From: Gemmatimonadota bacterium
GTDB taxonomy: Bacteria > Gemmatimonadota > Gemmatimonadetes > Longimicrobiales > Gaopeijiaceae
Direction of reading: 5' to 3'
Assembly: GCA_009844885.1 (NCBI GenBank)
Contig: VYAQ01000038.1
Span: forward strand, 1 to 34,721
Length of the DNA stretch: 34,721 bases
A program made the position numbers and the translations under genes. Shown here in pieces: positions 13,280-28,762 of this stretch; the first letter of the stretch is position 1, and each line of letters starts with the position of its first letter. The notes below the pieces were generated by a model that ran no database searches, was not told where the DNA came from, and saw only the letters and a program-made list of their open reading frames with translations.

Positions 13280-14830
13280 ATGGCCGTCGAACGACAATCA
13301 ACCTCGAGGGGGCGTGCCCTGGGCCTCTGGCTTGGCCTGGGCGCCTTCGTCCTTCTCCTCGTGCTCCCCGTGGATGCCACGAACGAGCCTGCCAGCCGTT
13401 TGGCCGCGGTGGCCCTTCTCATGGCGATCTGGTGGGTAACCGACGCCATTCCGCTCTTCGCCACCGCGCTCCTGCCCCTCGTCCTCTATCCCCTGCTGGG
13501 AATCATGTCGGGGGGCGACACCGCCCCGATCTACTTCAACAGCACGATCGTGCTCTTCCTGGGCGGCTTCATGATCGCCCTGACGATGGAGAAGTGGAAC
13601 CTGCACCGGCGTATCGCGCTCAACATCATCCACGCGGTCGGGGGCGGGCCGGCGCGCATCGTTCTCGGGTTCATGGTCGCGGCCGCGTTCCTGTCGATGT
13701 GGATTTCGAACACCGCCACCGCGGTCATGATGGTGCCGATCGGGCTCGCCATCTGCCTGCAGATCGAAAGCGAGGCGGGACGAGAGGGTGCGCGCCACCT
13801 CTCGGTTGGGCTGATGTTGGGGATTGCGTACGGCTGCACGGTGGGCGGGCTCACGACGCTGGTGGGTACACCGCCCAACCTCTCCTTCGTGCGCATCTTC
13901 GAGATCCTCTTCCCCGACGCCCCGGCGATCGCCTTCGGCCAGTGGCTGATCATGGCGTTCCCGGTGGGCCTGATCATGTTGTTCGTGTCATGGTTTCTCA
14001 TCACGCACGTGCTGCACCGCGTCCCGGAGGGCGTGACCATTGATCACGGCGTGGTGGAGAGGGAGCGCCAGGGCCTCGGCACCATCTCGTTCGAGGAGCG
14101 CGCGGTGCTGGGGGTCTTCGCGGCCACTGCGCTGCTGTGGGTCTTCCGCGTCGACCTGCAGCTGGGCTTTCTGACGGTGCCCGGCTGGTCGCGGCTCCTC
14201 CCGGACCCGGGCATGATCGACGACGGAACCGTTGCTATCACGCTCGCCTCGCTGCTCTTCTTCATACCCGCGAAGAACCGGAGGAAGGGCGCAACCCGCG
14301 TCATGGGACCCGACGTGATCCCGCGTTTGCCCTGGAACATCGTGCTGCTCTTCGGCGGCGGCTTTGCGCTGGCTGCGGGCTTTCAGGAGACGGGGCTCGC
14401 GCAGCTCATCGGCAGCCAGTTCGAGGTGCTGGGCAGCCTGCCCGTATTCGTGATGATCCTGCTGGTGTGCGCGGCGCTGACCTTCCTCACGGAATTCACC
14501 AGCAACACGGCCACGACCGAGATGGTTCTGCCGATCCTCGCATCCGTGGCGGTCGTGACCGGCACCCATCCCCTCGTGCTGATGATCCCCGCCACCCTGT
14601 CCGCGTCCTGCGCCTTCATGATGCCGGTGGCCACCCCGCCCAACGCGATCGTCTTCGGCAGCGACCGGATCACCGTGGGCGAGATGGCACGCGCGGGCAT
14701 CTTCCTCAACCTGATCGGGGTGGTCGTCATCGCGACCGTCGTCTTTACGGTGGGATTGCACGTCTTCGACATCGACCCTGCGATGGTGCCCGAGTGGGCA
14801 AGGTCAATGGCGGAAGGGGCGCACGAGTAG
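13280..14830 (+). CDS. SLC13/DASS-family anion (di/tricarboxylate-type) transporter
   Basis: A 516-residue inner-membrane protein with about 11-12 hydrophobic segments. The two SNT signature motifs of the divalent-anion:Na+ symporter family are present: WISNTATAVMMVP (SNT 143-145) and FTSNTATTEMVLP (SNT 408-410). They lie in the two inverted halves that form the Na+ and carboxylate site. MPVATPPNAIVFGS near the end is also typical. The likely substrate is a C4-dicarboxylate or similar anion; sulfate is possible. No clear Shine-Dalgarno precedes the ATG at 13280. It is 27 bp after the cytochrome gene, possibly the same transcript. Confidence 0.9.
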   Translation: MAVERQSTSRGRALGLWLGLGAFVLLLVLPVDATNEPASRLAAVALLMAIWWVTDAIPLFATALLPLVLYPLLGIMSGGDTAPIYFNSTIVLFLGGFMIALTMEKWNLHRRIALNIIHAVGGGPARIVLGFMVAAAFLSMWISNTATAVMMVPIGLAICLQIESEAGREGARHLSVGLMLGIAYGCTVGGLTTLVGTPPNLSFVRIFEILFPDAPAIAFGQWLIMAFPVGLIMLFVSWFLITHVLHRVPEGVTIDHGVVERERQGLGTISFEERAVLGVFAATALLWVFRVDLQLGFLTVPGWSRLLPDPGMIDDGTVAITLASLLFFIPAKNRRKGATRVMGPDVIPRLPWNIVLLFGGGFALAAGFQETGLAQLIGSQFEVLGSLPVFVMILLVCAALTFLTEFTSNTATTEMVLPILASVAVVTGTHPLVLMIPATLSASCAFMMPVATPPNAIVFGSDRITVGEMARAGIFLNLIGVVVIATVVFTVGLHVFDIDPAMVPEWARSMAEGAHE

Positions 14831-15036: not shown

Positions 15037-17013
15037 ATGACAGCGAGCACCTCACATCGGCTGACCGCAGCCCCGGCAACCCACGGCGGCAGGCGCGGCG
15101 GACGTCTCACCTTGCGGTGCGCCGTTCCGGGTTCCAGTCTGGCGCTGCTCACGATCCTCCTGGGTGCCGCGGGGTGCGAGAGGGACCTCGCCGTCCTCGA
15201 CCCTGCTCCCTTTCCGCCCGAGGCGGTGGTGTTCGAAGACGGGTTCGGTCCCGGAGTCCAGTTCTCGGCCTTCGGGGGATCGAAGGTGGACGCGCTGGAC
15301 ATCGAGCATGACGAGGTCTACCGCGGGACCGCCGCCCTCAAGTTCACCGTTCCCGCGCCCACCGATCCCTCCGGCGGCTACGCCGGGGGCGTGTTCTATT
15401 CCGTGGTACCCCGCGACCTGACCGGCTTCGACGCGCTCACCTTCTGGGCCAAGGCGAGCACCGCGGCTACGGTGAACACCATCGGGATCGGCAACGACAA
15501 CAGCGGCAATTCACGCTATCCCGCCACGGTCGAGGGGCTTCCCCTCTCCACCCGCTGGACCAAGTACGCCGTCCCCTTTCCGCTGCCGTCCAGGCTGGGC
15601 GAGGAAACCGGCCTCTTCCTGATCGCGGAGGGCTCCGAGTACCCGGTCGGCTACGACATCTTCTTCGACGACGTTCAGTTCGAGCGGCTTGGGACGATCA
15701 TCAACCCGAGGCCCGCCATCGCCACGCAGACGGTAAACGGTGAAGTCGGAGGCATGCTCCGGGTCGGCGGAACACAGGTGACCTTCGACGTCGGCGGCAG
15801 GGACCAGACGGTTCTTGCGGCTCCCGCCTATTTCACCTTCACCTCTTCCGATTCGGGAGTGGCCTCCGTAACCCCGGACGGCTTGATCTCGCTTCTTTCG
15901 GCGGGCACCGCCACGATCACCGCCACGCTCGGCTCCACCGCCGCCGAGGGTGCGGTGACGGTCACCGTCACGGCGCCCCCAACAGGCGCACCTCCCACTC
16001 CCCGGCACTCGGCCGGAGACGTGATTTCGCTCTTCAGTGACGCCTACGACGATGTCGTGGTCGACACCTGGTCGGCTTCGTGGGATCAGGCCGATGTCGA
16101 GGACATCCAGGTCGCCGGCAACCCGGTCAAGAAGTACACCAACCTGGCCTACGCCGGCATCGAGTTCACCTCGCAACCAATCGACGCGTCGTCGATGACC
16201 GACCTGCACGTCGATCTCTGGACCAACGATCCTTCCGCCTTCCGCATCAAGCTGGTCGACTTCGGAGGCAACGGGGTCTTCGGGGGCGGCGACGACACCG
16301 AGCATGAGATCACCCTCGATCAGGGCTCGATGCCACCCATCGCCGCGGGAGCCTGGAACACGCTGGACATCCCGCTCTCGGCCTTCACGGGTCTCGTGAG
16401 CCGCGGGAGCCTGGCGCAGATGATCATCTCGGGAGCCAGCCCGACCGTCTATCTCGACAACATCTACTTCTTCTCGACCACGCCTCCGCCGCCGAGCGCG
16501 CCCACAGAGGCCGCACCGACGCCGACGCACGCGGAGGCCAACGTGGTGTCCCTCTTCAGCGACGCCTACACGGACGCGGCCGTCGACACCTGGTCGGCTT
16601 CCTGGGATCAGGCCGACGTAGAGGATGTCCTGATCGCGGGGGACGCGGTAAAGAGGTACACCAACCTGGTCTTCGCCGGCATCGAGTTCACCTCGGCCAC
16701 GATCGATGCCGGCGAGATGACCCACTTCCACATGGACCTGTGGACCCCGGATCCCACCGCGGATCCGGCGGCGTTCAGGGTCAAGCTGGTGGACTTCGGG
16801 GCCGACGGCGGGTTCGGTGGAGGGGACGACACCGAGCACGAACTGACCCTCAACGCCATGTTTGAACCGCCGCTGGCAACCGGAAGGTGGGTCTCGTACG
16901 ACATCCCATTCACGGAGTTCACCGGGCTGACCACGCGAGGTCACCTCGCCCAGATGATCATCTCGGGAGATCCGAATACAGTGTTCATCGACAACGTGTA
17001 CCTGCACAGGTAG
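15037..17013 (+). CDS. Lipoprotein with carbohydrate-binding-like modules (glycan-binding surface/periplasmic protein)
   Basis: A 658-residue predicted lipoprotein. The signal peptide ends at LLGAAGC with lipid Cys47. A first beta-sandwich, CBM-like domain spans about residues 57-225 (ends DIFFDDVQFERLG). A bacterial Ig-like Big_2 domain follows at about 235-318 (VASVTPDGLISLLSAGTATI). Two tandem homologous modules come last, about 325-480 and 498-658, each opening with SLFSDAY and closing with VDN/LDN-[VI]Y. Such modules accompany laminarinases and glycan-binding lipoproteins in marine bacteria. No catalytic residues were seen, so the likely role is to bind the beta-glucan cut by the GH16 encoded downstream. 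It is first gene after promoter and operator 1. Confidence 0.8.
   Translation: MTASTSHRLTAAPATHGGRRGGRLTLRCAVPGSSLALLTILLGAAGCERDLAVLDPAPFPPEAVVFEDGFGPGVQFSAFGGSKVDALDIEHDEVYRGTAALKFTVPAPTDPSGGYAGGVFYSVVPRDLTGFDALTFWAKASTAATVNTIGIGNDNSGNSRYPATVEGLPLSTRWTKYAVPFPLPSRLGEETGLFLIAEGSEYPVGYDIFFDDVQFERLGTIINPRPAIATQTVNGEVGGMLRVGGTQVTFDVGGRDQTVLAAPAYFTFTSSDSGVASVTPDGLISLLSAGTATITATLGSTAAEGAVTVTVTAPPTGAPPTPRHSAGDVISLFSDAYDDVVVDTWSASWDQADVEDIQVAGNPVKKYTNLAYAGIEFTSQPIDASSMTDLHVDLWTNDPSAFRIKLVDFGGNGVFGGGDDTEHEITLDQGSMPPIAAGAWNTLDIPLSAFTGLVSRGSLAQMIISGASPTVYLDNIYFFSTTPPPPSAPTEAAPTPTHAEANVVSLFSDAYTDAAVDTWSASWDQADVEDVLIAGDAVKRYTNLVFAGIEFTSATIDAGEMTHFHMDLWTPDPTADPAAFRVKLVDFGADGGFGGGDDTEHELTLNAMFEPPLATGRWVSYDIPFTEFTGLTTRGHLAQMIISGDPNTVFIDNVYLHR
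16009..16476 (+). repeat. Carbohydrate-binding-like module, tandem copy A
   Basis: About 156 residues, from HSAGDVISLFSDAY to LDNIYFFS. It is closely similar in protein and DNA to copy B (for example both encode DTWSASWDQADVED with few base changes), indicating a fairly recent intragenic duplication. A third, more divergent and circularly permuted relative lies in the symporter gene at 19471-20100. Confidence 0.85.
16528..17010 (+). repeat. Carbohydrate-binding-like module, tandem copy B
   Basis: The C-terminal module, from HAEANVVSLFSDAY to the last codons (IDNVYLHR). It is separated from copy A by a Pro/Thr-rich linker. Its central hinge, DLWTPDPTADPAAFRVKLVDFG, is the point at which the copy inside the symporter is permuted. 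Confidence 0.85.
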
Positions 17014-17072
17014 TCCGCAAGGCCGGCCCGTCTTGCCGCGGCAACAGGGGACCGGCGGGAAGCCCAGGGCTC

Positions 17073-18299
17073 ATGGCATACAAGAATCCCTCCCGTTCGG
17101 CCGTCGTTCGCGAGCAGGGTCTGATGACGGAGGTCTTGAACCTTCTGTGGCGCCGGCGCGAGGTATCCCGGGCGGAGATCGCCCGGCACACGGGACGCTC
17201 GCGCTCCACGATTTCGGATCTGGTCGCGCGGCTCATCGCCGCCGGTCTCGTCAAGGAGGTGGGAAGCGGCGAAAGCCGGGGCGGACGGCGCCCAATCCTG
17301 ATCGGATTTCGGGATGATGCGGGAGTGATTCTGGGTGTCGACCTGGGCGCGACCCATATTTCCGTCATCTTGACCGATCTTCGCGGTTCGGTCCTGGCAT
17401 GGCGCGATCGATCCTACCCGGTACGAAGCAACCCCGGCGGCGCAGGCGATCTTGCGCTGGAACTGTGCCACGACTGCCTGGCCGAATGGGGTGGAGACAC
17501 GAACTGTCTGATCGGGATCGGCGTGGCGGTTCCCAGTCCCGTCGACCCCGAGGCTCCCGACCGCGTTCTTGAGCGAATCCACCCGGCCTGGCGCGGACGC
17601 GCGATCCTGGACAGGCTCGACGGCGCATTCGGGGTGCCCGTCTTCATCGAAAACGACGCCAACCTCGGGGCGGTGGCAGAGCACTCGCTGGGCAAGGCGG
17701 TCGGAGTCGACGACTTCCTGTACCTGAAGGTGGCGACCGGCGTCGGAGCCGGCCTGATGATCGGCGGAGAGATCTACCGGGGCTCGACGGGTGTGGCCGG
17801 AGAGATCGGACACATCGTGGTCGATCCCGCCGGCCCCGAATGCGTATGTGGCGGTCACGGCTGCCTGGCGACCTTTGTCGGAACACAGGCTCTGGTACGG
17901 AGGACGCGCGAATTGCTGAAGGGTCCGGTACCGAGCACGCTCGCGGGGGCGGATCTCGATATCAAGACCATCGAGGATGCGGCGCTCGCCGACGACCCGG
18001 TGGCCCTGCGCGTCGTCGACGAGGCGGCCCGCTACCTGGGCATCGCCGTCGCGGGTGTCGTCAACCTGTTGAACCCGGGCTCGGTAATCGTCGGCGGCAG
18101 CCTGGCGCGGGCGGGCGACCGACTGCTCGTCCCCCTTCGAGAGGCCGTCCTGCGCCGAACCCTGGTGGCTTCGGCGGCGGCGTCGGAGATACGGATCAGC
18201 GAGCTGGGACCTCGGGCCACGGCCCTGGGTGCGGCAACCCATGTGCTGGCCGCCTCCCTGGCGAACCCCAACCTCTTTCGAGGAGTGAACACGGCATGA
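17073..18299 (+). CDS. ROK-family transcriptional repressor (NagC/Mlc/XylR-like)
   Basis: A 408-residue protein. A winged-helix DNA-binding domain covers about residues 15-75 (EVSRAEIARHTGRSRSTISD, with wing GGRRP), followed by an ASKHA sugar-binding domain. ATP/phosphate-type motif DLGAT is at 90-94, ENDAN at 193-197, and GEIGH at 243-247 supplies the zinc His. The zinc loop CVCGGHGCLA has Cys257, 259 and 264. ROK proteins normally have Glu at the last position of this signature (CxCGxxGCxE); here it is Ala266. Since that Glu contacts sugar, the ligand or response may differ. The gene lies inside the operon and overlaps the GH16 start (ATGA). It is the likely binder of the 25-bp palindromes. 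Confidence 0.92.
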   Translation: MAYKNPSRSAVVREQGLMTEVLNLLWRRREVSRAEIARHTGRSRSTISDLVARLIAAGLVKEVGSGESRGGRRPILIGFRDDAGVILGVDLGATHISVILTDLRGSVLAWRDRSYPVRSNPGGAGDLALELCHDCLAEWGGDTNCLIGIGVAVPSPVDPEAPDRVLERIHPAWRGRAILDRLDGAFGVPVFIENDANLGAVAEHSLGKAVGVDDFLYLKVATGVGAGLMIGGEIYRGSTGVAGEIGHIVVDPAGPECVCGGHGCLATFVGTQALVRRTRELLKGPVPSTLAGADLDIKTIEDAALADDPVALRVVDEAARYLGIAVAGVVNLLNPGSVIVGGSLARAGDRLLVPLREAVLRRTLVASAAASEIRISELGPRATALGAATHVLAASLANPNLFRGVNTA

Positions 18300-19144
18300 C
18301 CTCGGGGACTTCCAACCGTTTCGCGGCCGGCGGCGACCGTCCCGCGTGGTACCGGTTCGCCGCCAGTGCCCTTCTCTGTGTCGCCACGCTTTCGTGCGAC
18401 GATGGCACCGACCCCGGCGAGGCCTCGTGGACCCTGGTCTGGAACGACGAGTTCGACGGCCCCGCTGGCGAGGTCCCCAATCCGGCCAACTGGGCCTTCG
18501 ACATCGGTACCGACTGGGGCAACGCCCAGCTGGAGTATGACACCGACCGCCCCGAGAACGTCTCTCTCGACGGCAACGGCAACCTGGCGATCACCGCCCG
18601 GCAGGAGCCCTACCAGGCAAGCGCCTACACATCCGGACGCATCAAGACGCAGGGGCTTTTCGAGCAGACGTACGGCCGTTTCGAGGCCCGCATCCAGCTC
18701 CCCACCGGCCAGGGCATCTGGCCCGCCTTCTGGATGCTCGGCAACGACATCGACGCGGTGGGCTGGCCAGAGTGCGGAGAGATCGACATCATGGAATACC
18801 GCGGCCAGGAGCCGAGCATCGTACTCGGCACCATCCACGGACCGGGATACTCGGCGAGCGCCGGTGTGAGCGGTCGCTACGCCCTTCAGGGCGCCCGTTT
18901 CGACACGGACTTCCACGTCTTCGCCATCGAGTGGACCGAAGGCGGCATCGCATGGTTCGTCGACGACTATCGCTATCACTCCGTCGACCGTAACGACCCC
19001 GGCGGCCGTTGGGTCTTCGATCACCCCTTCTTCATCCTTCTCAACGTCGCCGTAGGCGGCGGATTCGTCGGCCCGCCCAACGAATCCACGAACTTTCCGC
19101 AGACCATGCTCGTCGACTGGGTGCGCGTCTACCGGAGCGACTGA
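18296..19144 (+). CDS. GH16 endo-beta-1,3-glucanase (laminarinase-type) lipoprotein
   Basis: A 282-residue enzyme. An N-terminal export signal ends ATLSC with candidate lipid Cys34 (lipobox not ideal). A GH16 beta-jelly-roll follows. The catalytic signature is GEIDIMEY, with nucleophile Glu162, helper Asp164 and acid/base Glu167. WPAFWMLGND upstream and HVFAIEWTEGGIAWFVDD downstream are typical of laminarinases. The insertion after the first Glu (EIDIME) places it in the bacterial beta-1,3-glucanase branch rather than kappa-carrageenases or agarases, though the exact linkage is inferred. ATG 18296 overlaps the ROK stop, with AGGAG upstream. It is followed two bases later by the symporter gene. 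Confidence 0.93.
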   Translation: MTSGTSNRFAAGGDRPAWYRFAASALLCVATLSCDDGTDPGEASWTLVWNDEFDGPAGEVPNPANWAFDIGTDWGNAQLEYDTDRPENVSLDGNGNLAITARQEPYQASAYTSGRIKTQGLFEQTYGRFEARIQLPTGQGIWPAFWMLGNDIDAVGWPECGEIDIMEYRGQEPSIVLGTIHGPGYSASAGVSGRYALQGARFDTDFHVFAIEWTEGGIAWFVDDYRYHSVDRNDPGGRWVFDHPFFILLNVAVGGGFVGPPNESTNFPQTMLVDWVRVYRSD

Positions 19145-19146
19145 GA

Positions 19147-21213
19147 ATGAGCCACCGAACGGCCCCTGAAGATCGCATATCGTTTCCGCACAAGATCGCC
19201 TACGGGGTCGGCGGGTTCGTAAACAACCTGCTGGCGCAGGGCATCGGCAACATGATGATCGTGTTGACCCTCGCGCTGGGCATGGACTTCCGTGCGGTCG
19301 GCCTGCTGGGAAGTCTTCCGCGGGCCTTCGACGCGATCACCGATCCTCTGGTGGGCTTCATATCTGACAAGACGAAGTCCCGCTGGGGGCGGCGGCGGCC
19401 CTTCCTGTTCATCGGGGCGATCGCCTCGGGCGTGGTCTTCGCCCTGCTCTGGCAGATGCCGGCGCCGACCCAGTTCCGGCTCAAGCTGGTGGACTACGGC
19501 GCCGACGGCGTCTACAGCGGCGAGGTGACCGGCGAGCCGGTCGGAATGCTGGAGTCGGTAGTCAACTCGCTGAGGGGCATTGTCACGGTGGAGATGATGG
19601 ACGACGTCGAGGACGAAGTCACGATCCTCCCGCCGACGCTGGTGACGGGGCAGTGGGTGAGCGTGGACGTGCCCCTCGCTGCCTTCGATGAACTCGCCAC
19701 CCGGGAACACCTTTCGCAGATCCTCATCTCGGGGGACCTGACCGAGGTCTACGTCGACAACGTGTACCTGTACCGAAGCGACGGCGCCGCGCGCGCGGAA
19801 CCTTCCGGGCAGGACGTGGACGGACCGGCTGCGCCCGAGGCGCGTGCGCCCACCCCGACGGTGCCGGCCCAGGACGTGATCTCGTTATTCAGCGACGCGT
19901 ACGACGACGTACCGGTCCAGTTCTGGTCCACCGACTGGGACGAGTCCGATGTTGCGGACACACAGGTCGCCGGGGACCCGGTCAAGCACTACACCAACCT
20001 GCGCTTCGCCGGGATCGACTTCGGGGAAACCCCGGTCGACGCGCGCGAGATGACGCACGTCCACATGGATATCTGGACTCCGGAAACCACGGGCGCGGGC
20101 CGGAGCCAAACCTACTACTTCTACTACTTCCTGATCGGCTCGCTGATCTTCTTCCTCGCCTACACCGTCTTCGCCACGCCCTGGGTGGCACTCGGGTACG
20201 AACTCACTCCCGACTACAACGAGCGCACCCGCCTGATGGGCGTGCAGAACTTCGTTTCGAACATCGCGTTCGTGATCGGGCCCTGGTTCCTCGTGATCAT
20301 GACCAACGCCGCGTGGTTCCGGAACCAGATGGCCGGCGCACGCTTCCTGGCGATCGCGATCTGCGTAACGACCATCGCGCTGGGTGTGATCCCCGCGATC
20401 TTCCTCCGCGAGCGGGTGCCTACGGGCGGCGGGGACGCCAACGAGGACAGCGCGAGCCTCGCCGAGAACGTCATGGAGTTCCTGCGGGGCCTGTGGCAAA
20501 CGGTGAAGACCGGTCCCTTCCTGATGCTCTGCGTCGCGACCTTCCTGATCTTCAACAGCTTCATCATGATCTCGCAGTTCCAGTTCTGGGTGTTCGCCTA
20601 CTACGTCTCCGGCGGCAACATCGGAGAAGGGGCGGGGCTCGCGGGACTGGTCGGCACACTCGGCATCGTGGCCGGCTTCCTGGTGATCATGATCGTCACC
20701 TGGCTGGGGACGAAGATCGGGAAGAAGAACGCGTTCTTCGTGTCGACCGGCATCTCGATGTTCGGGTATGCGCTGAAATGGTTCTGCTACACACCGGACT
20801 ACCCCATGCTGGCCCTGCTTCCGGCCCCGTTCCTCGCCTTCGGCCTGGGGGGCCTGTTCACGCTCATGGGATCCATGATCGCCGACGTCGTGGACCTTGA
20901 CGAGATCACCACCGGGGAGCGGCGCGAGGGCATGTTCGGATCGGTGTTCTGGTGGGTCGTGAAGGTCGGCCAGAGCGTAGCGATCCTGGCCGGAGGCTTC
21001 CTGCTCTACTCCACCGGGCTCGACCCCGCGCTCGGGGCGAACCAGCCCGAAGGCACCCTCTTCTGGCTGCGCTTCTACGACGCCGTCGTGCCGCTCGTCG
21101 CTTCCGCGATCGCGATCGTGGCGATATACAAGTACCCGATCACGGAAAAGAGCGCGCTCGACGTGCGGGCGGAGCTGGAGAAGAGGCGGGGGACCGGGAG
21201 CGTGGCGGCGTAG
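19147..21213 (+). CDS. GPH/MelB-type sugar:cation symporter carrying an internal binding-module insertion
   Basis: A 688-residue inner-membrane protein. Without residues ~109-318 it is a normal-length (about 478) member of the glycoside-pentoside-hexuronide symporter branch of MFS. TM1-TM3 precede residue 105, with cytoplasmic motif SDKTKSRWGRRRPF at 73-86. TM4 resumes at YYFYYFLIGSLIFFLAYTVF, followed by the family motif YELTPDYNERTRL. The final cytoplasmic motif, DEITTGERREGMFGS, is also present. The insertion falls in the TM3-TM4 loop, which faces the periplasm. No stop or frame break is visible at either junction. It starts two bases after the GH16 stop. Likely cargo is glucose or beta-glucan oligosaccharides, inferred from the operon. 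Confidence 0.9.
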   Translation: MSHRTAPEDRISFPHKIAYGVGGFVNNLLAQGIGNMMIVLTLALGMDFRAVGLLGSLPRAFDAITDPLVGFISDKTKSRWGRRRPFLFIGAIASGVVFALLWQMPAPTQFRLKLVDYGADGVYSGEVTGEPVGMLESVVNSLRGIVTVEMMDDVEDEVTILPPTLVTGQWVSVDVPLAAFDELATREHLSQILISGDLTEVYVDNVYLYRSDGAARAEPSGQDVDGPAAPEARAPTPTVPAQDVISLFSDAYDDVPVQFWSTDWDESDVADTQVAGDPVKHYTNLRFAGIDFGETPVDAREMTHVHMDIWTPETTGAGRSQTYYFYYFLIGSLIFFLAYTVFATPWVALGYELTPDYNERTRLMGVQNFVSNIAFVIGPWFLVIMTNAAWFRNQMAGARFLAIAICVTTIALGVIPAIFLRERVPTGGGDANEDSASLAENVMEFLRGLWQTVKTGPFLMLCVATFLIFNSFIMISQFQFWVFAYYVSGGNIGEGAGLAGLVGTLGIVAGFLVIMIVTWLGTKIGKKNAFFVSTGISMFGYALKWFCYTPDYPMLALLPAPFLAFGLGGLFTLMGSMIADVVDLDEITTGERREGMFGSVFWWVVKVGQSVAILAGGFLLYSTGLDPALGANQPEGTLFWLRFYDAVVPLVASAIAIVAIYKYPITEKSALDVRAELEKRRGTGSVAA
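19471..20100 (+). other. In-frame, circularly permuted carbohydrate-binding-like module inside the symporter
   Basis: About 210 codons, symporter residues ~109-318. Order: a C-terminal half module (FRLKLVDYGADG ... ISGDLTEVYVDNVYLYR), a Pro/Ala/Glu linker (about residues 211-243), then an N-terminal half module (VISLFSDAYDDVPVQFW ... MTHVHMDIWTPETTGAG). In the lipoprotein at 15037 these halves occur in the opposite order and join at WTPD...FRVKLVDFG, exactly the break used here. The length is a multiple of three with no stops. Similarity to copies A and B is clear but not near-identical, so it is not a fresh copy of either. It is predicted periplasmic. Confidence 0.85.
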
Positions 21214-21226
21214 GCAGGCAGCCAGG

Positions 21227-23110
21227 CTAGCAGCGACGCAGGCTGCCCATACGCAATCCGTACCCGAGGGGAAACAGCGCCCTCGCGCGCGTGCCGCGCG
21301 TTCCATTGCTCCGCGAGTCCCCGTCGCCCGGCATGTCCGCCGGCCAGGACACCGGCAGACGCCCGTGGAACTCGCAGTCCCCGAAGAGCACATCGGCCAC
21401 GCCGGCGCCCTCCGAGCCGGGCAGCCACGCCGCCACGAATGCCGACGACTCGGACAGTTCGGCGTTGACGACCAGAGGCCGGCCGGAAATGAGGACCGTC
21501 ACCACCGGAATGTCCCGCGCGGCAAGCGCCCGTATGGTGCCCAGGTCCTCGGGATGCAGGGTCGCGAGTTCCAGCGTATCGCCGTACGGCTCCAATACAC
21601 CGGGGCCGGCCGCAGGTTGGATGGCTCCGGCACGCACGGGAGCGGGCTCGCGGATGTCTCCAAGTCCCTCGGCGTAGGGTTTCTCCCCGATGACCACGAT
21701 CGCCGCGTCGAAGTGCTCACGGGTCGCATCCGCCCCGCCTTTTTCGCAGAGCACCGCCCGCGGCGCGACCTCCCGGATCCCCTCCCAGATCGATGTCCCG
21801 CCCTCGATCGCGTCGTTGCCCGACACGCCCTGCCACTCGACAGTGAAGCCTCCGCACTGCCTCCCGCGGTCGTGCGCGTTTCTGCCGGTCACCAGGATGC
21901 GGGCGTCCCTCTGCAAAGGGAGGATCCCGCGCCTGTTCTTGAGCAGCACCAGCGACTTCCGCACCGCCTCGCGGGCAACTTCCCGGTGCTCCGCCGATCC
22001 AAACTCCACATCGTTGGAAGCCCGCCGAGCCCAGGGGCGGGGCCGATCGAAGAGTCCAATCGCCGATTTGACGCGCAGGATCCGTCCGACCGCGTCGTCG
22101 ATTCGCTCGATCGGAACCGCGCCGCGCTCCACCTGCGTCCTCAGTCCGGAGATGAAGGATTTCCAGGTCTCGGGAACCATGAACATGTCGATGCCGGCGT
22201 TTGCCGCCATCGCGGCGGCCTTGGAATAGTCGTCGGCCAGCGGATCGATCCCGTTCCAGTCGGAGACGACGAACCCGCCGAACCCCATCTCTCCCTTGAG
22301 CACGTCCTGGATCAGGTAGCGATGCGCATGGCATTTCGCGCCCTTCCAACTGCTCAGCGACACCATCACGGTCAGCACCCCGGCCTCCAGGGCAGGCCTG
22401 TACGGCGCGATGTGGAGACGCCGCAAGTCCTCCTCGCCAACCACCGTGTCGCCCTGGTCCACTCCCGCCTCCGTTCCGCCGTCGCCGACCCAGTGCTTGG
22501 CACAGGCCACGACACCGTTCGGGCCGACGCCCATGCGCCCGTCCTGCAGCCCCCTTACGATCCTCGACGCGTATCCGGCCACGATCCGGGGATCCTCCGA
22601 GTAGCTCTCGTAGGTGCGGCCCCAGCGCGCGTCCCGCGAGACCGCCAGGGTCGGCGCGAAAGTCCACTCCACACCCGCGGCCAGCACCTCCCGGGACGTT
22701 ACGCGCCCGATCCGTTCGATCAGATCGGGGTCGCGCATTGCGCCCAGTCCGATGTTGTGCGGGAAGATCGTCGCCCCCCGCACGTTGCCGTTTCCGTGGA
22801 TCGCATCCACGCCGTACAGGAGCGGGATCGCCAGGTGATCCTCGTCCTCCTCCATCGAGGCCGCCCAATAGGCGTCGTTCATCGCCACCCAGTCCGCCGG
22901 GCGGCTGCGGCCTGGACACGAGCCGCCGCCGCTCAGCACCGAGCCGATATGAAACGCCTTTACCTCGGCCGGACTCACGTGAATCCGCTCGGGCTGCGTC
23001 ATCTGCCCGATCTTCTGATCGAGGGTCATGCGCGCGACCAGCGCGTCGACGCGCACGTTGGTCTGGGACACACCCGCCGCGCCCGCTTTCGGGCGCACGG
23101 TTGCAGTCAT
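21227..23110 (-). CDS. GH3 beta-glucosidase / exo-beta-glucanase, probably cytoplasmic
   Basis: A 627-residue two-domain GH3 enzyme. The (beta/alpha)8 domain includes LLYGVDAIHGNGNV, AKHWVGDGGTEAG and nucleophile Asp284 in GFVVSDWNGI. The second domain contains IGEKPYAEGLGD, equivalent to the GExPYxE loop of barley exoglucanase ExoI, so Glu476 is the candidate acid/base. There is no C-terminal FnIII domain. The N-terminus (MTATVRPKAGAAG) shows no signal peptide, which fits hydrolysis of imported oligosaccharides to glucose. It is the second gene after operator 2, 49 bp behind the GH2-like gene. No clear Shine-Dalgarno precedes ATG 23110. It converges on the symporter with 13 bp between stops. 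Confidence 0.93.
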   Translation of the reverse strand: MTATVRPKAGAAGVSQTNVRVDALVARMTLDQKIGQMTQPERIHVSPAEVKAFHIGSVLSGGGSCPGRSRPADWVAMNDAYWAASMEEDEDHLAIPLLYGVDAIHGNGNVRGATIFPHNIGLGAMRDPDLIERIGRVTSREVLAAGVEWTFAPTLAVSRDARWGRTYESYSEDPRIVAGYASRIVRGLQDGRMGVGPNGVVACAKHWVGDGGTEAGVDQGDTVVGEEDLRRLHIAPYRPALEAGVLTVMVSLSSWKGAKCHAHRYLIQDVLKGEMGFGGFVVSDWNGIDPLADDYSKAAAMAANAGIDMFMVPETWKSFISGLRTQVERGAVPIERIDDAVGRILRVKSAIGLFDRPRPWARRASNDVEFGSAEHREVAREAVRKSLVLLKNRRGILPLQRDARILVTGRNAHDRGRQCGGFTVEWQGVSGNDAIEGGTSIWEGIREVAPRAVLCEKGGADATREHFDAAIVVIGEKPYAEGLGDIREPAPVRAGAIQPAAGPGVLEPYGDTLELATLHPEDLGTIRALAARDIPVVTVLISGRPLVVNAELSESSAFVAAWLPGSEGAGVADVLFGDCEFHGRLPVSWPADMPGDGDSRSNGTRGTRARALFPLGYGLRMGSLRRC

Positions 23111-23159: not shown

Positions 23160-26100
23160 TCACATCCCGATGTGGAGGTAGGTGCGGACCTCCCATTCGC
23201 GCCCGTTGCCGCCGCCGAGCTTCGGATTGCACTCCATCCTGCCGAATTCGTCCGGCGAGAGGCCCGGGCAGTAGCGGGGCGAGTACTCGTTCAGCGTGCG
23301 CATCGCCGCACGCACGCCGAAGCGGGTCTGCGGCATGTCGAACCACTCCGGCGGCCCGAGCGTGTAGGAGATGTCGCCCATGAGCTGCAACGGGAAGGTG
23401 TGGTTGAAGTCGCGGTGGTAGTCGTAGGGACCCCAGTCGTTGACCCGCGCCATCGCCTGGAACTTGACGGCGCCGCCGATTAGCCGCAGGTCGGCGCCCG
23501 CCCGGCTGATCACCCGTTCATCGCTGCCGTTGGGTTCTCCCTTGCCCGCGTACACGTTGGCGACAACCCCTGCCGCGGCCGAGCGCTTCGAGACGATCCG
23601 CGCCTTGACCTCCCACAGGTCGCGAGCCGGGGGCGCACCCGGGAACGCAAAGGTGGAGCGGCCGTCGGCCAGGATTCCGATTCCGGCGTCCTGGGTGGTC
23701 GGGAAGCTGTAGTACACGAAGCCGAACGAGGTCGCGAAGCGCGCGTCCTCGCGAATGTCGCTGTCCCAGGTGTACATCCAGGTAGCGGGGGTCGGGTCGT
23801 AGGTGAAGAGGACTTCGGCCGCGCGGGTCTCGCGGTTGCCCCGGACGGCAAAGGGGTCGTCCAGGATGTTGCGGGGACGTCCCGGGGCCGGGACATCGGC
23901 CGGCACCGGACCCACCAGGGGTTTCCGCCACAGGAAGTTGGGCGCGACCTGCCAGTTGCCCGAGGTGATCGCGAACCCGGTGATCACGTTGCGCTGGTTG
24001 CCGTGGCCCGTGTCCTTCAGCGTCCAGCCGGTGAAGGTCTGGGTCTGGGTGAAGCCGCCGTCGGCCACGAGGCCCATCGCGGCACCCTGCAGATACCAGC
24101 TGAGGCGACCCCTCGTCAGGGTGATCTTGGCCTTCGCCCCCAGAGCGTCCGACGGCCTGATCTCGTCGTGGAGCACCCTGTAGGTGCCGGGCGAACCGTC
24201 AACGACCTGGAAGGGCTGCCCCTCCTTCGTGCTCCCCGACCAGATGCCTCCGACGTCGACGATCATGTTGCCGCGCGTTGCGGTCATGTGCAGCGTCGCC
24301 TTGCGGGTCGGCGGGAGCGGTACGGCGAAGGAACTGGCGGCCTTCCCCGCCTCTGCCAGGTCTTCCTGGTAGATGGCTGTGGTCTCCAAGGGCCCGATGT
24401 TGGTCCGGTATCTGGCCAGCACCGCCGGGTTGGCTCCCCACCACAGTTCGGGCCCGATCGCGATCTTCCAGCCGCTCAGCGAACGCTTCCCGGTGATCTC
24501 CATCCCGACCGGCGCGACTCCGTTGTAGATGTCCATGTTGGGCCCGTAGTTGGCCTCCGGGTACAGCCCGAAGAAGTCGCCTTCGTAGCCCCAGTGGTAG
24601 TGGCCGGTGCGGTAGAAGCCCTCGAGGTTGAACCAGCGGTCGTCCCACGAGAAGCTGGCGTTGTAGACCTTGAGCCGCTCGATGTCCTGGAGCTGGAAGG
24701 TCTCGCCGTTGTCGGCCTCGATAACGCGCGAGCGGCCGCGGTTCTCGTAGAAGAGTTCGTCGATCGGATTCCGGGGAATGTCGCCGAGGATGTTCAGAGA
24801 GACGTTCGCGACCATGCTCTGGACGGGCCTGGCCGCCAGATCCGCGTAGAACGACTGCATCTTGTCGAAGCCCCGGTGGCTGGGGAAGGAGCGGTTCCGT
24901 TCCGGAGCCTCCTCGGGCGTGCTCACCAGGTGGCCGCCGGTGTTGAAAGTCTCGAGTTCCGCCCGGATCCCGCTCAGGTGCACGCGGTCGCGCGCGGTGG
25001 CCAGCAGTGCGGCGCGGTCCCCCAGGGCCTGCAAGCCGACGTTGGCGGGATGGATCGAGGCGAAGTGCTCCCGGATGGCCGCAATGTCCGTCCCCGGCCC
25101 GTACGGATCGAGCCTGTACGCTTCCTGCAACGCGTAGTAGGCGGCACGCGGGTAGAGTTCGTAGAGGTTGTTGTGGTCGGTGGGGCCCTTGGCGACGATC
25201 CCCCACCACTCCTCGTTCATGTTGTTGTCGCCCTCGACGAAGTCCTCCGGATAGGCATCGTTCGCCCACGAGGCGTTGGTGTCCTGGATGTCCAGCCGGT
25301 CCTCCTGGCCGAACTTCCACCACCCGTCGGTCCACTGGAAGGTGAGGCCCCCGATCGAGTTGCCCACGCCCCCCTTGCCGGCGGACTCCTCGTAGATCTC
25401 GCGCCACTGCTCGATCAGATACTTCGCCTGCGTGACCTGGTCCTCGCGCATGTTCTTCGCGTCCCAGACATCCGCGCCGAACTCGGTGAACATGACGGGG
25501 CGGTCGAGCTTGTCGTGCACCTCCTGGAAGAGGTCCCTGAAGGAGATACCGCGATAGACGTTGGTGCCGAAGACGTCCAGGTCGGGGATCTCCTCGGCGA
25601 TGATGTCGATGTACTGGAGGTCGCCGTTGGCCATTGCGATCGGGCGCGTGTCGTCCATCTCCCTGATGCGGGCGGCCACGTCGCCGAAGAGCGAGTACAT
25701 GTAGCGCGCGCGCACGGCGTCCGCCTCGCCTGCGGGCAAGTCCTCGGTCTCGGCCGAACTCCACACCAGTCCGTAGTTGTTCTCGTTGCCGAGCAGCCAC
25801 ATCAGGACGCCGGGCGTGTCCCTGAAGGCATTGACCATCTCCACGATCTCGCCCATCACCACCGCGCGGGCCCTGGGATCCGAGTAGTCCGTGTTGGGGT
25901 TGAAGACGCCGCCCACGGTCACGCCGTAGCGTGCGACCGCGTGATTGAGGACCGTGTAGATGCCGTACTCCTCGTAGATGTGCCGCACCCATCTCGGCGT
26001 GATCCCCACATAGGCGCGGATCGCATTCCCGCCCATCGCCTTCAGCAGCGACATCTCGCGTTCGAGCGCCGCCTCGATGATGTGGTCGGGCTCGGTCCAG

Positions 26101-26381
26101 AAGTTGTAATTGTAGGTGGTTCCGCGCGGAAAGTAGTCCCAGTTGACTCCGAGCACCATGATGTCCTCGCCGTCCACCCGGAGACGGGTGCCCGAGTCGT
26201 CCTTGACGAGTTCGATGACCGGTAGGTCGGGTTCGGCGTCCTGGGCGGCGGCGGGCGTGGCGGGTGTGAGCGCGAGAAGGAGCGCCAGGGCGGACGTGGC
26301 GGACAAGAGCGCGGTCAATCGCTCCGGCACCGCAGCGGGCCTCTTTGCGGCTCGGATGATCTGATTGCGGATCGAACTCAT
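23160..26381 (-). CDS. GH2-like TIM-barrel glycoside hydrolase with C-terminal outer-membrane beta-barrel-like region
   Basis: A 1073-residue exported protein. A signal peptide (residues ~1-47, ending PAAAQ) is followed by a clan-A TIM barrel at about 55-440: VLGVNWDYFPRGTTYNYNF, then LLGNENNYG with acid/base Glu200, then VMFTEFGADVW with nucleophile Glu300. This matches retaining GH2 or glucanosyltransferase-like enzymes that act on beta-linked glucans. From about residue 500 the sequence changes to alternating, aromatic-rich strands and turns (FSWDDRWFNLEGFYRTGHYHW) and ends EWEVRTYLHIGM, as in outer-membrane barrels. The ATG at 26381 has GGGAGGAG seven bases upstream. It is the first gene behind operator 2. 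The barrel assignment is by eye; another beta-rich fold is possible. Confidence 0.78.
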   Translation of the reverse strand: MSSIRNQIIRAAKRPAAVPERLTALLSATSALALLLALTPATPAAAQDAEPDLPVIELVKDDSGTRLRVDGEDIMVLGVNWDYFPRGTTYNYNFWTEPDHIIEAALEREMSLLKAMGGNAIRAYVGITPRWVRHIYEEYGIYTVLNHAVARYGVTVGGVFNPNTDYSDPRARAVVMGEIVEMVNAFRDTPGVLMWLLGNENNYGLVWSSAETEDLPAGEADAVRARYMYSLFGDVAARIREMDDTRPIAMANGDLQYIDIIAEEIPDLDVFGTNVYRGISFRDLFQEVHDKLDRPVMFTEFGADVWDAKNMREDQVTQAKYLIEQWREIYEESAGKGGVGNSIGGLTFQWTDGWWKFGQEDRLDIQDTNASWANDAYPEDFVEGDNNMNEEWWGIVAKGPTDHNNLYELYPRAAYYALQEAYRLDPYGPGTDIAAIREHFASIHPANVGLQALGDRAALLATARDRVHLSGIRAELETFNTGGHLVSTPEEAPERNRSFPSHRGFDKMQSFYADLAARPVQSMVANVSLNILGDIPRNPIDELFYENRGRSRVIEADNGETFQLQDIERLKVYNASFSWDDRWFNLEGFYRTGHYHWGYEGDFFGLYPEANYGPNMDIYNGVAPVGMEITGKRSLSGWKIAIGPELWWGANPAVLARYRTNIGPLETTAIYQEDLAEAGKAASSFAVPLPPTRKATLHMTATRGNMIVDVGGIWSGSTKEGQPFQVVDGSPGTYRVLHDEIRPSDALGAKAKITLTRGRLSWYLQGAAMGLVADGGFTQTQTFTGWTLKDTGHGNQRNVITGFAITSGNWQVAPNFLWRKPLVGPVPADVPAPGRPRNILDDPFAVRGNRETRAAEVLFTYDPTPATWMYTWDSDIREDARFATSFGFVYYSFPTTQDAGIGILADGRSTFAFPGAPPARDLWEVKARIVSKRSAAAGVVANVYAGKGEPNGSDERVISRAGADLRLIGGAVKFQAMARVNDWGPYDYHRDFNHTFPLQLMGDISYTLGPPEWFDMPQTRFGVRAAMRTLNEYSPRYCPGLSPDEFGRMECNPKLGGGNGREWEVRTYLHIGM

Positions 26382-26500: not shown

Positions 26501-28762
26501 TCAGAACGCCTTCATGTAGGTCAGCTTCACCACTCCGGTCCGCCGCTGCCAGCGCTCCGTCCTGGGATCCAGGAGGTCGCCGGTCAGGTAACCCGTGTCG
26601 AAGACCACGAAGAGGTCGCTGCCGGGCGTATGGATCCAGTTGACTCGGATGTTGGCCTGGATCTGATTCGAGACGTCGTCGTACTGGACCAGGGCGTTGG
26701 CGAAGAGCGACCGGCTGACCGCTGCCAGGACGGTCAGGGTAAAGACGCTGGTGGTGAAGTCGCCGTCCTCGACGGGCAGGCTGATGTCGTTGCGCGTATA
26801 GTTACCGCTGAGGGTAAGGTAGGGCCCCGTCTTCCACATCCCGCCGACTGCCACCTCGGTGCCGGTGCCGCCCCAGAAGCCACCCCTCGAGAACCCGCCG
26901 CTGGCCGAAAACTCGCGGCTGTCGTTGGTGTTGAACCGGACCTGGGCGCCGCTGAACACGTAGTCGCTGGAAGCCAGCTCGCGTCCCTGAATCCGCACCG
27001 GCTGATGAAGAACCTCTCCCCGGCGAGTGATGTTGAGCATCATGCGGTCGCCGCTCTCGAAGGTCAGCATGTTGTGCGACAGCAGGAAGGTGCTCTGCTT
27101 CTCGCCGTCCATGCCCGCGATGTAGTCGCCGCTCACGACCGTAACCAGCTGGCGGGCCCAGTCGCTCTGCTCGAAGCGGGGGAACGCGGCAAACGAGCCC
27201 GAACGCGTGCGGATGTCGCGGCGGCGCACGAAGCCGAGCGCCGGGTTGAATCCGGCGGGCACCTGCGCGAAGCTGCCTCCCGCCGAAAGCAGATTGTTGC
27301 GCAGGTCGACTTCGAAGGTCCCGGCCGTGGTGCCGCCAGCGGACGTGCTGCCGGTCCCGGAAGCCACGCTGCCGCTCTCGGGCGCCACGCCGCCGCTCTC
27401 GGACGACCGGGCCATCCATCCCCTCACGGTGGACCCGCCGAACCGGAACTGCATGTCGCCTCCGACGACCCTGCTCGCTTCGTCGTCCGTATCCAGCGAC
27501 GTGAAAATGGCTCCCACGGTCGTCCTCGGAAACGGATCGGCGCGCAACCGCAGCACCGAATTGAGGCCGCCGGCAATCACGCGGCCCTCCGCGTCCCGGG
27601 CGTCGTCGGTAAAGAGACTGAGCGCGCCTACGGAAATCGGGCCGGCCTGACCCGTCAACCGTGTGCCTCCCGCGATGTCGTTGGTGATCCCGATCCTGCG
27701 ACTGAAGAAGACCTGCGTCTCCCGCGGGTCGCCGAAGTCGAAAAGCCCGGCCCGCTCCAGGAAGAACTCCCGCTTCTCGGGGAAGAAGAGGCCGAAGCGG
27801 GTAAGGTTGATCTGGACGTTGTCGGCCTCCACCTGGGCGAAGTCCGGGTTCAAGGTCGCGTCGAGCGTCAGGTTCGAGGTGACCGAGTACTTGAAGTCCA
27901 GCCCGAGGTCGTTGAGCGTCTCGGTTCCGCCGTCCGCCCCACCCTGCCGCCCGGTCGCCGAGCGGCCCGTGATCGCGAAGGGCTTCACCTCCATGTAGCG
28001 GCCGCTCCGCAACCCTTCCAGCCCGGTCAGGGTCGCGTACTGCGACACCTGGCTGAGCGCGCGGCTGAACTCCTGCCCGATGTGGGGGAAGTACACCATC
28101 TCGTTCTTGCGGCGGATGGTGCGCTCCATGAGGATCCCCATTTCGAGCGCGTCCGCGTCGTCGAAGCGGATCGTCGTGAACGGGATGGCCGCCTCGACCA
28201 CCCAGCCCTCGTCGGTGACCCGCGCCTGACTCTCGTAGACGCCCTCCCACCACCAGTCCGAAAGCGTCATGTCCTCGTCGCTGATCAGCGCGTCGCCCTG
28301 CGTGCCGAAGGGGTTGATCTCGAAGATGTATGCGTTGCGCCGGTCATGGTACGTGTCGAGGCCGATGCGGATGTTGTCGTCCTGGTCGATCCGTCCCTCG
28401 CGGTGCAGGATGCTGCGCCGGATCCCCGACGGGTCCGAGTCGTGAAGGACGACCGCGAAATACAGGTTGTTGTCGTCGAACGCGACTCTCAGTTCGGTGA
28501 GTTCGGAGGATGGGGCGCCATCGACGGGCACGCGTTGGCGGAAATCGGTGACGGGCTCGATCTCGTGCCAGAAGGGCTCGTCGAGAACCCCGTCGATGGT
28601 CGGAGGCTGGCCGGTGCGGACGGCGCGGACCGTCGGCTCGTCGAGCGCCCGGGTTCCGGCCGACTGGCTGGTTGCAGCGTCTTGGCCCAGGAGGGGGCCT
28701 TGGTGCAAGGCGGCGGCGAGGGCCGCCAGAAGCACCGGACCGACTACGCGCACACGCCCCAC
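26501..28762 (-). CDS. DUF5916 outer-membrane-type protein with N-terminal CBM9-like domain
   Basis: A 753-residue exported protein. A signal peptide (LLAALAAALHQGPLLGQ) precedes a CBM9-like beta-sandwich at about 45-230 (PPTIDGVLDEPFWHEIEPV, YIFEINPFGTQGDA). The rest matches DUF5916: LNPDFAQVEADNVQINLTRF, FFPEKREFFLERAGLFDFGD, then strands ending in VVKLTYMKAF, typical of a beta-barrel C-terminus. The function of the family is unknown. The start is GTG at 28762 without a good ribosome site. The small upstream gene ends 27 bp before it, so reinitiation or coupling is possible. A Ser/Gly-rich stretch near residues 450-475 looks like a flexible extracellular loop. It lies upstream of operator 2 and so probably outside that regulon. 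Confidence 0.85.
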   Translation of the reverse strand: MGRVRVVGPVLLAALAAALHQGPLLGQDAATSQSAGTRALDEPTVRAVRTGQPPTIDGVLDEPFWHEIEPVTDFRQRVPVDGAPSSELTELRVAFDDNNLYFAVVLHDSDPSGIRRSILHREGRIDQDDNIRIGLDTYHDRRNAYIFEINPFGTQGDALISDEDMTLSDWWWEGVYESQARVTDEGWVVEAAIPFTTIRFDDADALEMGILMERTIRRKNEMVYFPHIGQEFSRALSQVSQYATLTGLEGLRSGRYMEVKPFAITGRSATGRQGGADGGTETLNDLGLDFKYSVTSNLTLDATLNPDFAQVEADNVQINLTRFGLFFPEKREFFLERAGLFDFGDPRETQVFFSRRIGITNDIAGGTRLTGQAGPISVGALSLFTDDARDAEGRVIAGGLNSVLRLRADPFPRTTVGAIFTSLDTDDEASRVVGGDMQFRFGGSTVRGWMARSSESGGVAPESGSVASGTGSTSAGGTTAGTFEVDLRNNLLSAGGSFAQVPAGFNPALGFVRRRDIRTRSGSFAAFPRFEQSDWARQLVTVVSGDYIAGMDGEKQSTFLLSHNMLTFESGDRMMLNITRRGEVLHQPVRIQGRELASSDYVFSGAQVRFNTNDSREFSASGGFSRGGFWGGTGTEVAVGGMWKTGPYLTLSGNYTRNDISLPVEDGDFTTSVFTLTVLAAVSRSLFANALVQYDDVSNQIQANIRVNWIHTPGSDLFVVFDTGYLTGDLLDPRTERWQRRTGVVKLTYMKAF

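Follow-up and report, generated by a model that had tools for sequence, protein, structure and literature searches.

What is a module homologous to those of a neighbouring lipoprotein doing inside a loop of a sugar symporter, and how did it get there? The question is raised by a stretch of 34,721 nucleotides (hereafter the window: positions 1 to 34,721 of contig VYAQ01000038.1, assembly GCA_009844885.1) from a Gemmatimonadota bacterium of the order Longimicrobiales. The gene concerned encodes a carrier of the major facilitator superfamily (MFS) related to MelB, in which 211 residues separate transmembrane helices 3 and 4 (TM3 and TM4). The best explanation as a whole, a domain insertion that is natural and has become fixed in this sugar symporter, together with the origin and role proposed below, is in our judgement probably correct. 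That a circularly permuted module was inserted and has since been inherited by common descent is close to certain.

A circularly permuted module between TM3 and TM4

The carrier gene, its parts and the presumed source of the inserted domain family are the following.

19147..21213, plus strand: GPH/MelB-like MFS carrier with inserted domain, 688 amino acids
19147..19461, plus strand: N-terminal part of the carrier, TM1-TM3, residues 1-105 (from uninserted orthologs and the AlphaFold model)
19462..20094, plus strand: insert, circularly permuted beta-sandwich module in the TM3-TM4 loop, residues 106-316 (from the ortholog boundary and permuted profile matches)
19462..19776, plus strand: tail half of the module, residues 106-210, matching positions 76-156 of the free-module profile
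19516..19599, plus strand: 28-residue loop within the tail half, residues 124-151
19777..19872, plus strand: linker, residues 211-242, with an AP.P motif as in the inter-module linkers of the lipoprotein
19873..20094, plus strand: head half of the module, residues 243-316, matching positions 1-74 of the free-module profile
20095..21213, plus strand: C-terminal part of the carrier, TM4-TM12, residues 317-688 (from uninserted orthologs and the AlphaFold model)
15037..17013, plus strand: lipoprotein matching Big_2, with free modules at 16018-16473 and 16540-17007, both in normal order

The 211 residues are extra relative to uninserted orthologs, where the empty site reads, for example, LLWQMP followed directly by EGRSESYYF; apparently no host residue was lost. 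A preliminary description of this DNA had reported an in-frame insertion with clean junctions in an otherwise intact carrier. The insertion is real, and its start and end had been placed within 9 and 6 nucleotides, respectively, of those given here. The claimed homology to the lipoprotein modules also holds. A profile built from 62 free modules of related loci matches the head half with an independent E-value of 8.5e-34 and the tail half with 1.2e-19 and 3.3e-6, as calculated for a set of 22 sequences. The description had overlooked that the module is circularly permuted, that it was gained a single time, that the genome holds a second copy and that the inserted form has spread to another order.

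All 22 inserts match the profile in the same inverted order, approximately positions 76-156 first and then 1-74 (tail, linker, head). The linker between the halves measures 31 to 54 residues and carries AP.P or the allowed variant PADSP in every insert (22/22), and AP.P is present in 52 of 55 inter-module slices of tandem arrays. In the free-module model (predicted local distance difference test, pLDDT, 91.6) the cut maps to the loop joining strand 4 to strand 5. By these matches the insert is a circular permutant, its C-terminal part preceding its N-terminal part, with all strands kept. Its loop 124-151 is about 25 residues longer than the free-module counterpart, includes a helix predicted with low confidence (134-146) and evolves fast. 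Neither Pfam nor NCBIfam yields a match for the insert.

The carrier matches Pfam MFS_2 with 201.2 bits (gathering cut-off 27) but does not reach the curated cut-off of NCBIfam TIGR00792 (gph; 169.9 against 231 bits). Another inserted carrier scores 153.0 bits, and two uninserted orthologs (from loci L041 and L042) score 162.2 and 157.0 bits. Since these orthologs also fall below the cut-off, the shortfall reflects divergence of the carrier lineage and is not due to the insert. On these scores the protein is an MFS_2/GPH-like carrier and not a TIGR00792 member. Residues D62 and D66, invariant in 19/19 carriers, align to the MelB stretch with the cation-site residues Asp55 and Asp59. The MelB sugar-site residues K18, D19 and D124 appear to correspond to N26, N27 and A343 (the alignment is weak around TM4), so that sugar specificity in this carrier group probably differs from that of MelB.

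The AlphaFold model of the 688-residue product, a prediction that the preliminary description had proposed, retains an intact MelB-like MFS fold and does not leave the insert unfolded. All nine strands of the free module (9/9) map onto predicted strands of the carrier model. In blocks of ten residues the insert reaches pLDDT values of 75-95, except at 121-150 (44-55) and 211-230 (57-63). Loop 3-4 of MelB faces the periplasm according to the available sections of PMC8437787, and from this topology the insert is predicted to be periplasmic, as the preliminary description had it. Prediction accordingly gives a folded domain within an extracytoplasmic loop of an intact MFS carrier.

Distribution and descent of the inserted carriers

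Inserted carriers occur in 21 of the 394 genomes of the class (one as a fragment), and the host group consists of uncultured marine Gemmatimonadota. For comparison, the carrier profile at E 1e-20 matches 28 of 154 genomes of the order and 53 of the 394. Fifteen of the 21 inserted genomes belong to the genus of the window and three others are G030, G071 and G072. The remaining three come from another family: Ca. Palauibacter poriticola (G154), isolate SB0664_bin_19 (G160) and Ca. Palauibacter denitrificans (G206), of the order Ca. Palauibacterales. Within the window's genus, G005 contributes only a fragment at a contig end, G007 has a later frame break, and G000 (the window's own genome) and G008 carry two inserted carriers each. 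Eight of the 23 genomes of this genus, G000 being counted among the 23, have no carrier match or only a trace (G002, G004, G010, G011, G014, G016, G017 and G018). Several inserted genomes are well assembled: G001, G021 and G072 consist of one contig and G071 of two. G001 and G021 correspond to OX638356.1 and OX639991.1 (Longimicrobiales), where the inserted carrier lies on single-contig chromosomes.

The two inserted carriers of the window's own genome are 87% identical. The second one (contig C282 of G000, locus L002, 1-4242) is flanked by pieces of ROK, GH16 and GH3 genes with 64-82% identity, a second version of the locus in the same genome.

Between the anchor points, loop 3-4 comprises 210-235 residues in the 22 inserted carriers against 0-1 in 27/27 others (8 + 12 orthologs, 5 paralogs and 2 distant carriers). 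In trees computed from the carrier part with the insert removed, with 15 and 20 uninserted rows and with G007 left out of the inserted ones, the 21 inserted rows fall on one side of a branch with support 100/99. On these trees the inserted carriers are one clade, and the insertion was most likely gained once. The Palauibacter carriers (loci L050, L051 and L054, from G206, G154 and G160) nest within the clade of the window's genus, a placement that suggests horizontal transfer of the locus from one order to another. G220, of the same genus as the Palauibacter carriers, has an uninserted carrier on a long branch adjoining the inserted clade. A sequence-pattern scan of genome contigs, which reaches close relatives only, returned 14 loci, all from Gemmatimonadota or its subgroups. 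A sample of 395 genomes of the phylum added no inserted genome beyond those of the class sample.

Constraint on the inserted module

Ratios of nonsynonymous to synonymous substitution (dN/dS) were obtained by NG86 over 205 of 210 pairs (those with carrier dS below 1). They are 0.21 for the carrier, 0.25 for the module, 0.34 for its head half, 0.46 for the linker, 0.57 for the extra loop and 0.61 for a cytoplasmic loop. These ratios indicate that the module is under purifying selection, the fold being maintained while the linkers drift. The free modules have 54 near-invariant positions (conserved in at least 95%), and 36 of these are retained in at least 90% of the inserts. D85, D96, D97, E99, E101, D151, N152, Y10, Y40 and W117 are kept in 22/22 inserts, W68 in 21 and W18 in 19. 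The early-branching inserts of G071 and G072 still have W22 and the DDVEHE motif, which suggests that the insert was probably a normal module at first and was altered afterwards.

The module family and the locus

The lipoprotein at 15037-17013, with its two modules of about 155 residues each, is presumed to represent the source of the insert's domain family. Free modules form arrays of 2-4 copies in related loci. At least two full-length modules in normal order are found in 48 non-carrier open reading frames (ORFs) of the loci (L113 repeats L051, and at most two are counted twice). Module-matching ORFs devoid of a full-length module number 23, namely the 22 carriers, one of them twice. The free-module fold is a beta-sandwich of the carbohydrate-binding module (CBM) type, matching CBM8, CBM11, CBM29, CBM30 and the laminarin-binding X584 (8qx6) at 6-17% identity; a fold absent from the structure-match lists is not thereby excluded. 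None of the 62 free modules matches any Pfam family at E 0.01 (0/62), and a sequence search for solved relatives gave none that is credible (one match, E 0.067). The family resembles an undescribed CBM-like family of glucan loci.

The surrounding genes are as follows.

16887..18299, plus strand: ROK-family regulator (ORF as listed; the true start is probably downstream of the lipoprotein)
18290..19144, plus strand: GH16, nearest solved relatives beta-1,3-glucanases and laminarinases
21227..23110, minus strand: GH3, nearest solved relatives including beta-glucosidase 5m6g, an exo-1,3/1,4-beta-glucanase and the barley beta-D-glucan exohydrolase
23160..26381, minus strand: 1073-residue protein with a Glyco_hydro_2_C (TIM barrel) match, a recurrent neighbour

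The order lipoprotein with modules, ROK, GH16, carrier is found in 19/22 inserted loci (the exceptions are one locus of G000, G000b, and both of G008, G008a and G008b) and in 12/20 uninserted orthologous loci. Among the uninserted exceptions, G031, G102 and G109 have the GH16 match before the lipoprotein, three stretches are short, G098a has no GH16 match in the stretch covered and G220 no ROK match. GH3 follows the carrier on the opposite strand in 14/22 inserted loci, as far as the stretches reach. Judged from the solved relatives of GH16 and GH3, the locus most likely serves beta-1,3-glucan. Two further genes lie nearby: a sodium:sulfate symporter-type carrier upstream of the lipoprotein (13280-14830, plus strand), also present in 11 other of the 22 inserted loci, and a protein with CBM9_1 and DUF5916 matches (26501-28762, minus strand).

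Proposed origin and function

We propose that a single repeat period, taken from a tandem module array such as the one encoded immediately upstream, moved once and in frame into the TM3-TM4 loop. Because the inserted period begins and finishes within the loop that links the consecutive strands 4 and 5, the domain is a circular permutant, its old ends joined by the former inter-module linker. Judging from the shape of the insert, this origin is the simplest. The domain is predicted to adopt the nine-stranded sandwich of the free module while the carrier stays intact, and purifying selection maintains it. It may act as a tethered, probably low-affinity glucan-binding module that holds beta-glucan chains or oligosaccharides near the symporter entrance, so that substrate is locally enriched or the carrier stays anchored at the site of glucan cleavage. 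We give glucan binding by this putative module an even chance. The full proposal is more tentative: a cation-coupled symporter with a built-in putative glucan-binding domain, the functional counterpart of an ABC (ATP-binding cassette) importer with a fused binding protein, made in one step by moving one repeat period, with the permutation itself making the ends fit.

Several observations weigh against this proposal. The alignment used by AlphaFold contained tandem slices, which biases the model toward the permuted fold. Fold matches of the free module also include non-CBM sandwiches, such as a glucuronyl C5-epimerase and a complex I assembly intermediate, and a CBM-like fold by itself shows no function. 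The closest solved relative of the carrier is the lysophospholipid symporter MFSD2A, with MelB behind it, so that the case for a sugar substrate is drawn from the family profile and the locus. The head half has the raised ratio of 0.34, and in 6/8 sister pairs the module ratio exceeds that of the carrier (0.32 against 0.12 in G013/G021), indicating a somewhat weaker constraint on the module. W22 is kept in 14/22 inserts and lost in 8. Eleven of the 54 near-invariant positions (D16, T17, G47, E49, T51, S52, D71, F86, H100, I140 and T147) are kept in less than half of the inserts, and carbohydrate binding may therefore have been kept, changed or lost. To trace the donor, both halves of six inserts were compared by score with the first, internal and last modules of the 48 arrays, and this comparison did not single out one module. 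Tails have higher mean scores with internal and last modules than with first ones, the maxima not always agreeing (G000a); heads do not discriminate among the three.

The preliminary description had considered a chimeric assembly, here of the carrier and lipoprotein genes, and had proposed a search for the same domain order in related genomes. The only point in favour of a chimera is the length of the insert, which equals one period of a repeat array, where assemblers can err. The same architecture recurs with diverged sequence in the 21 genomes of the class, among them the single-contig chromosomes OX639991.1 and OX638356.1, and twice in the window's own genome. The insert shares 60-65% DNA identity with the window's own lipoprotein modules, which shows that it is not a misassembled copy of them. 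We consider the chimera refuted. The observation of the preliminary description is confirmed and strengthened. Its interpretation, a permease with a built-in binding domain, is partly supported: the clean insertion, the homology and the predicted fold and location hold, and capture of oligosaccharides for the pore is a putative role.

The inserted domain may no longer serve substrate capture, which we regard as rather unlikely. The eleven near-invariant positions replaced in most inserts, some of them alike in 22/22 (T51 to G) although the core of the fold is conserved, would agree with such a change, as would the recurrence of the locus neighbours and the precedent of PepT (available sections of PMC4597091). 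However, no partner or interface is known, and the replaced positions may lie outside the ligand site. Conservation of fold core and reading frame in 22 inserts, together with the module ratio of 0.25, speaks against a tolerated passenger without function, as do the absence of any uninserted carrier inside the inserted clade and the presence of the inserted form in another order. It is true that linker and extra loop evolve fast, that constraint on the module is slightly looser than on the carrier, that a need to fold harmlessly for the sake of the carrier could explain part of the conservation, and that PepT2 can lose such a domain with transport unimpaired (available sections of PMC4597091). 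A mere passenger nevertheless seems improbable to us. Finally, the ROK regulator encoded in the locus would suit a protein turned sensor (a transceptor), whose module binds glucan and whose carrier part signals. The invariance of D62 and D66, the intact carrier fold of the model and the absence of any visible output domain make this very improbable.

If the inserted module does bind glucan, it would show how a secondary carrier can gain the scavenging ability of binding-protein-dependent importers, in uncultured bacteria including Ca. Palauibacter. The proposed event would also illustrate a general route for repeat domains to enter other proteins. The insertion is an unusually clear case of permuted-domain origin. 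Relatives with the empty site, arrays of the presumed donor type and inserted forms that branch early are all still present, which allows the proposed event to be re-enacted and tested. The transfer of one array period into a loop could further guide the design of sensors and of transporters with inserted domains.

Comparison with known systems

Secondary sugar carriers are thought to take their substrate from solution. ABC importers with fused substrate-binding domains (GlnPQ, OpuA) are ATP-driven, have another fold and carry the domain as a terminal fusion; they would work alike in being permeases with a built-in binding domain. No large insert is present in loop 3-4 of MelB or of other GPH:cation symporters (MFS_2). 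The animal lipid transporter MFSD2A, a sodium-dependent lysophosphatidylcholine symporter, shows no such domain in the alignments compared. CBM8, CBM11, CBM29, CBM30 and X584 share the fold of the free module at low identity and are not permuted into a carrier. We found no report of a carbohydrate-binding module inserted into a GPH or any other MFS carrier in the open-access literature, and the available sections of a paper on the Palauibacterales (PMC10469786) contain 0 occurrences of laminarin or glucan.

The nearest parallel is offered by PepT1 and PepT2 (SLC15), in which beta-sandwich domains are inserted within the MFS fold on the outer side (available sections of PMC4597091). Like the carrier of the window, they are MFS carriers with an inserted outer beta-sandwich ectodomain. 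Unlike it, they belong to another MFS family and to animals and have two Ig-like domains that bind trypsin; permutation is not mentioned in the available sections of the same article. This precedent makes a role in substrate handling possible, yet such an ectodomain need not handle substrate. Among MFS carriers with an inserted ectodomain, this one is set apart by the CBM-like fold, the sugar-symporter host and a permutation equal to one repeat period.
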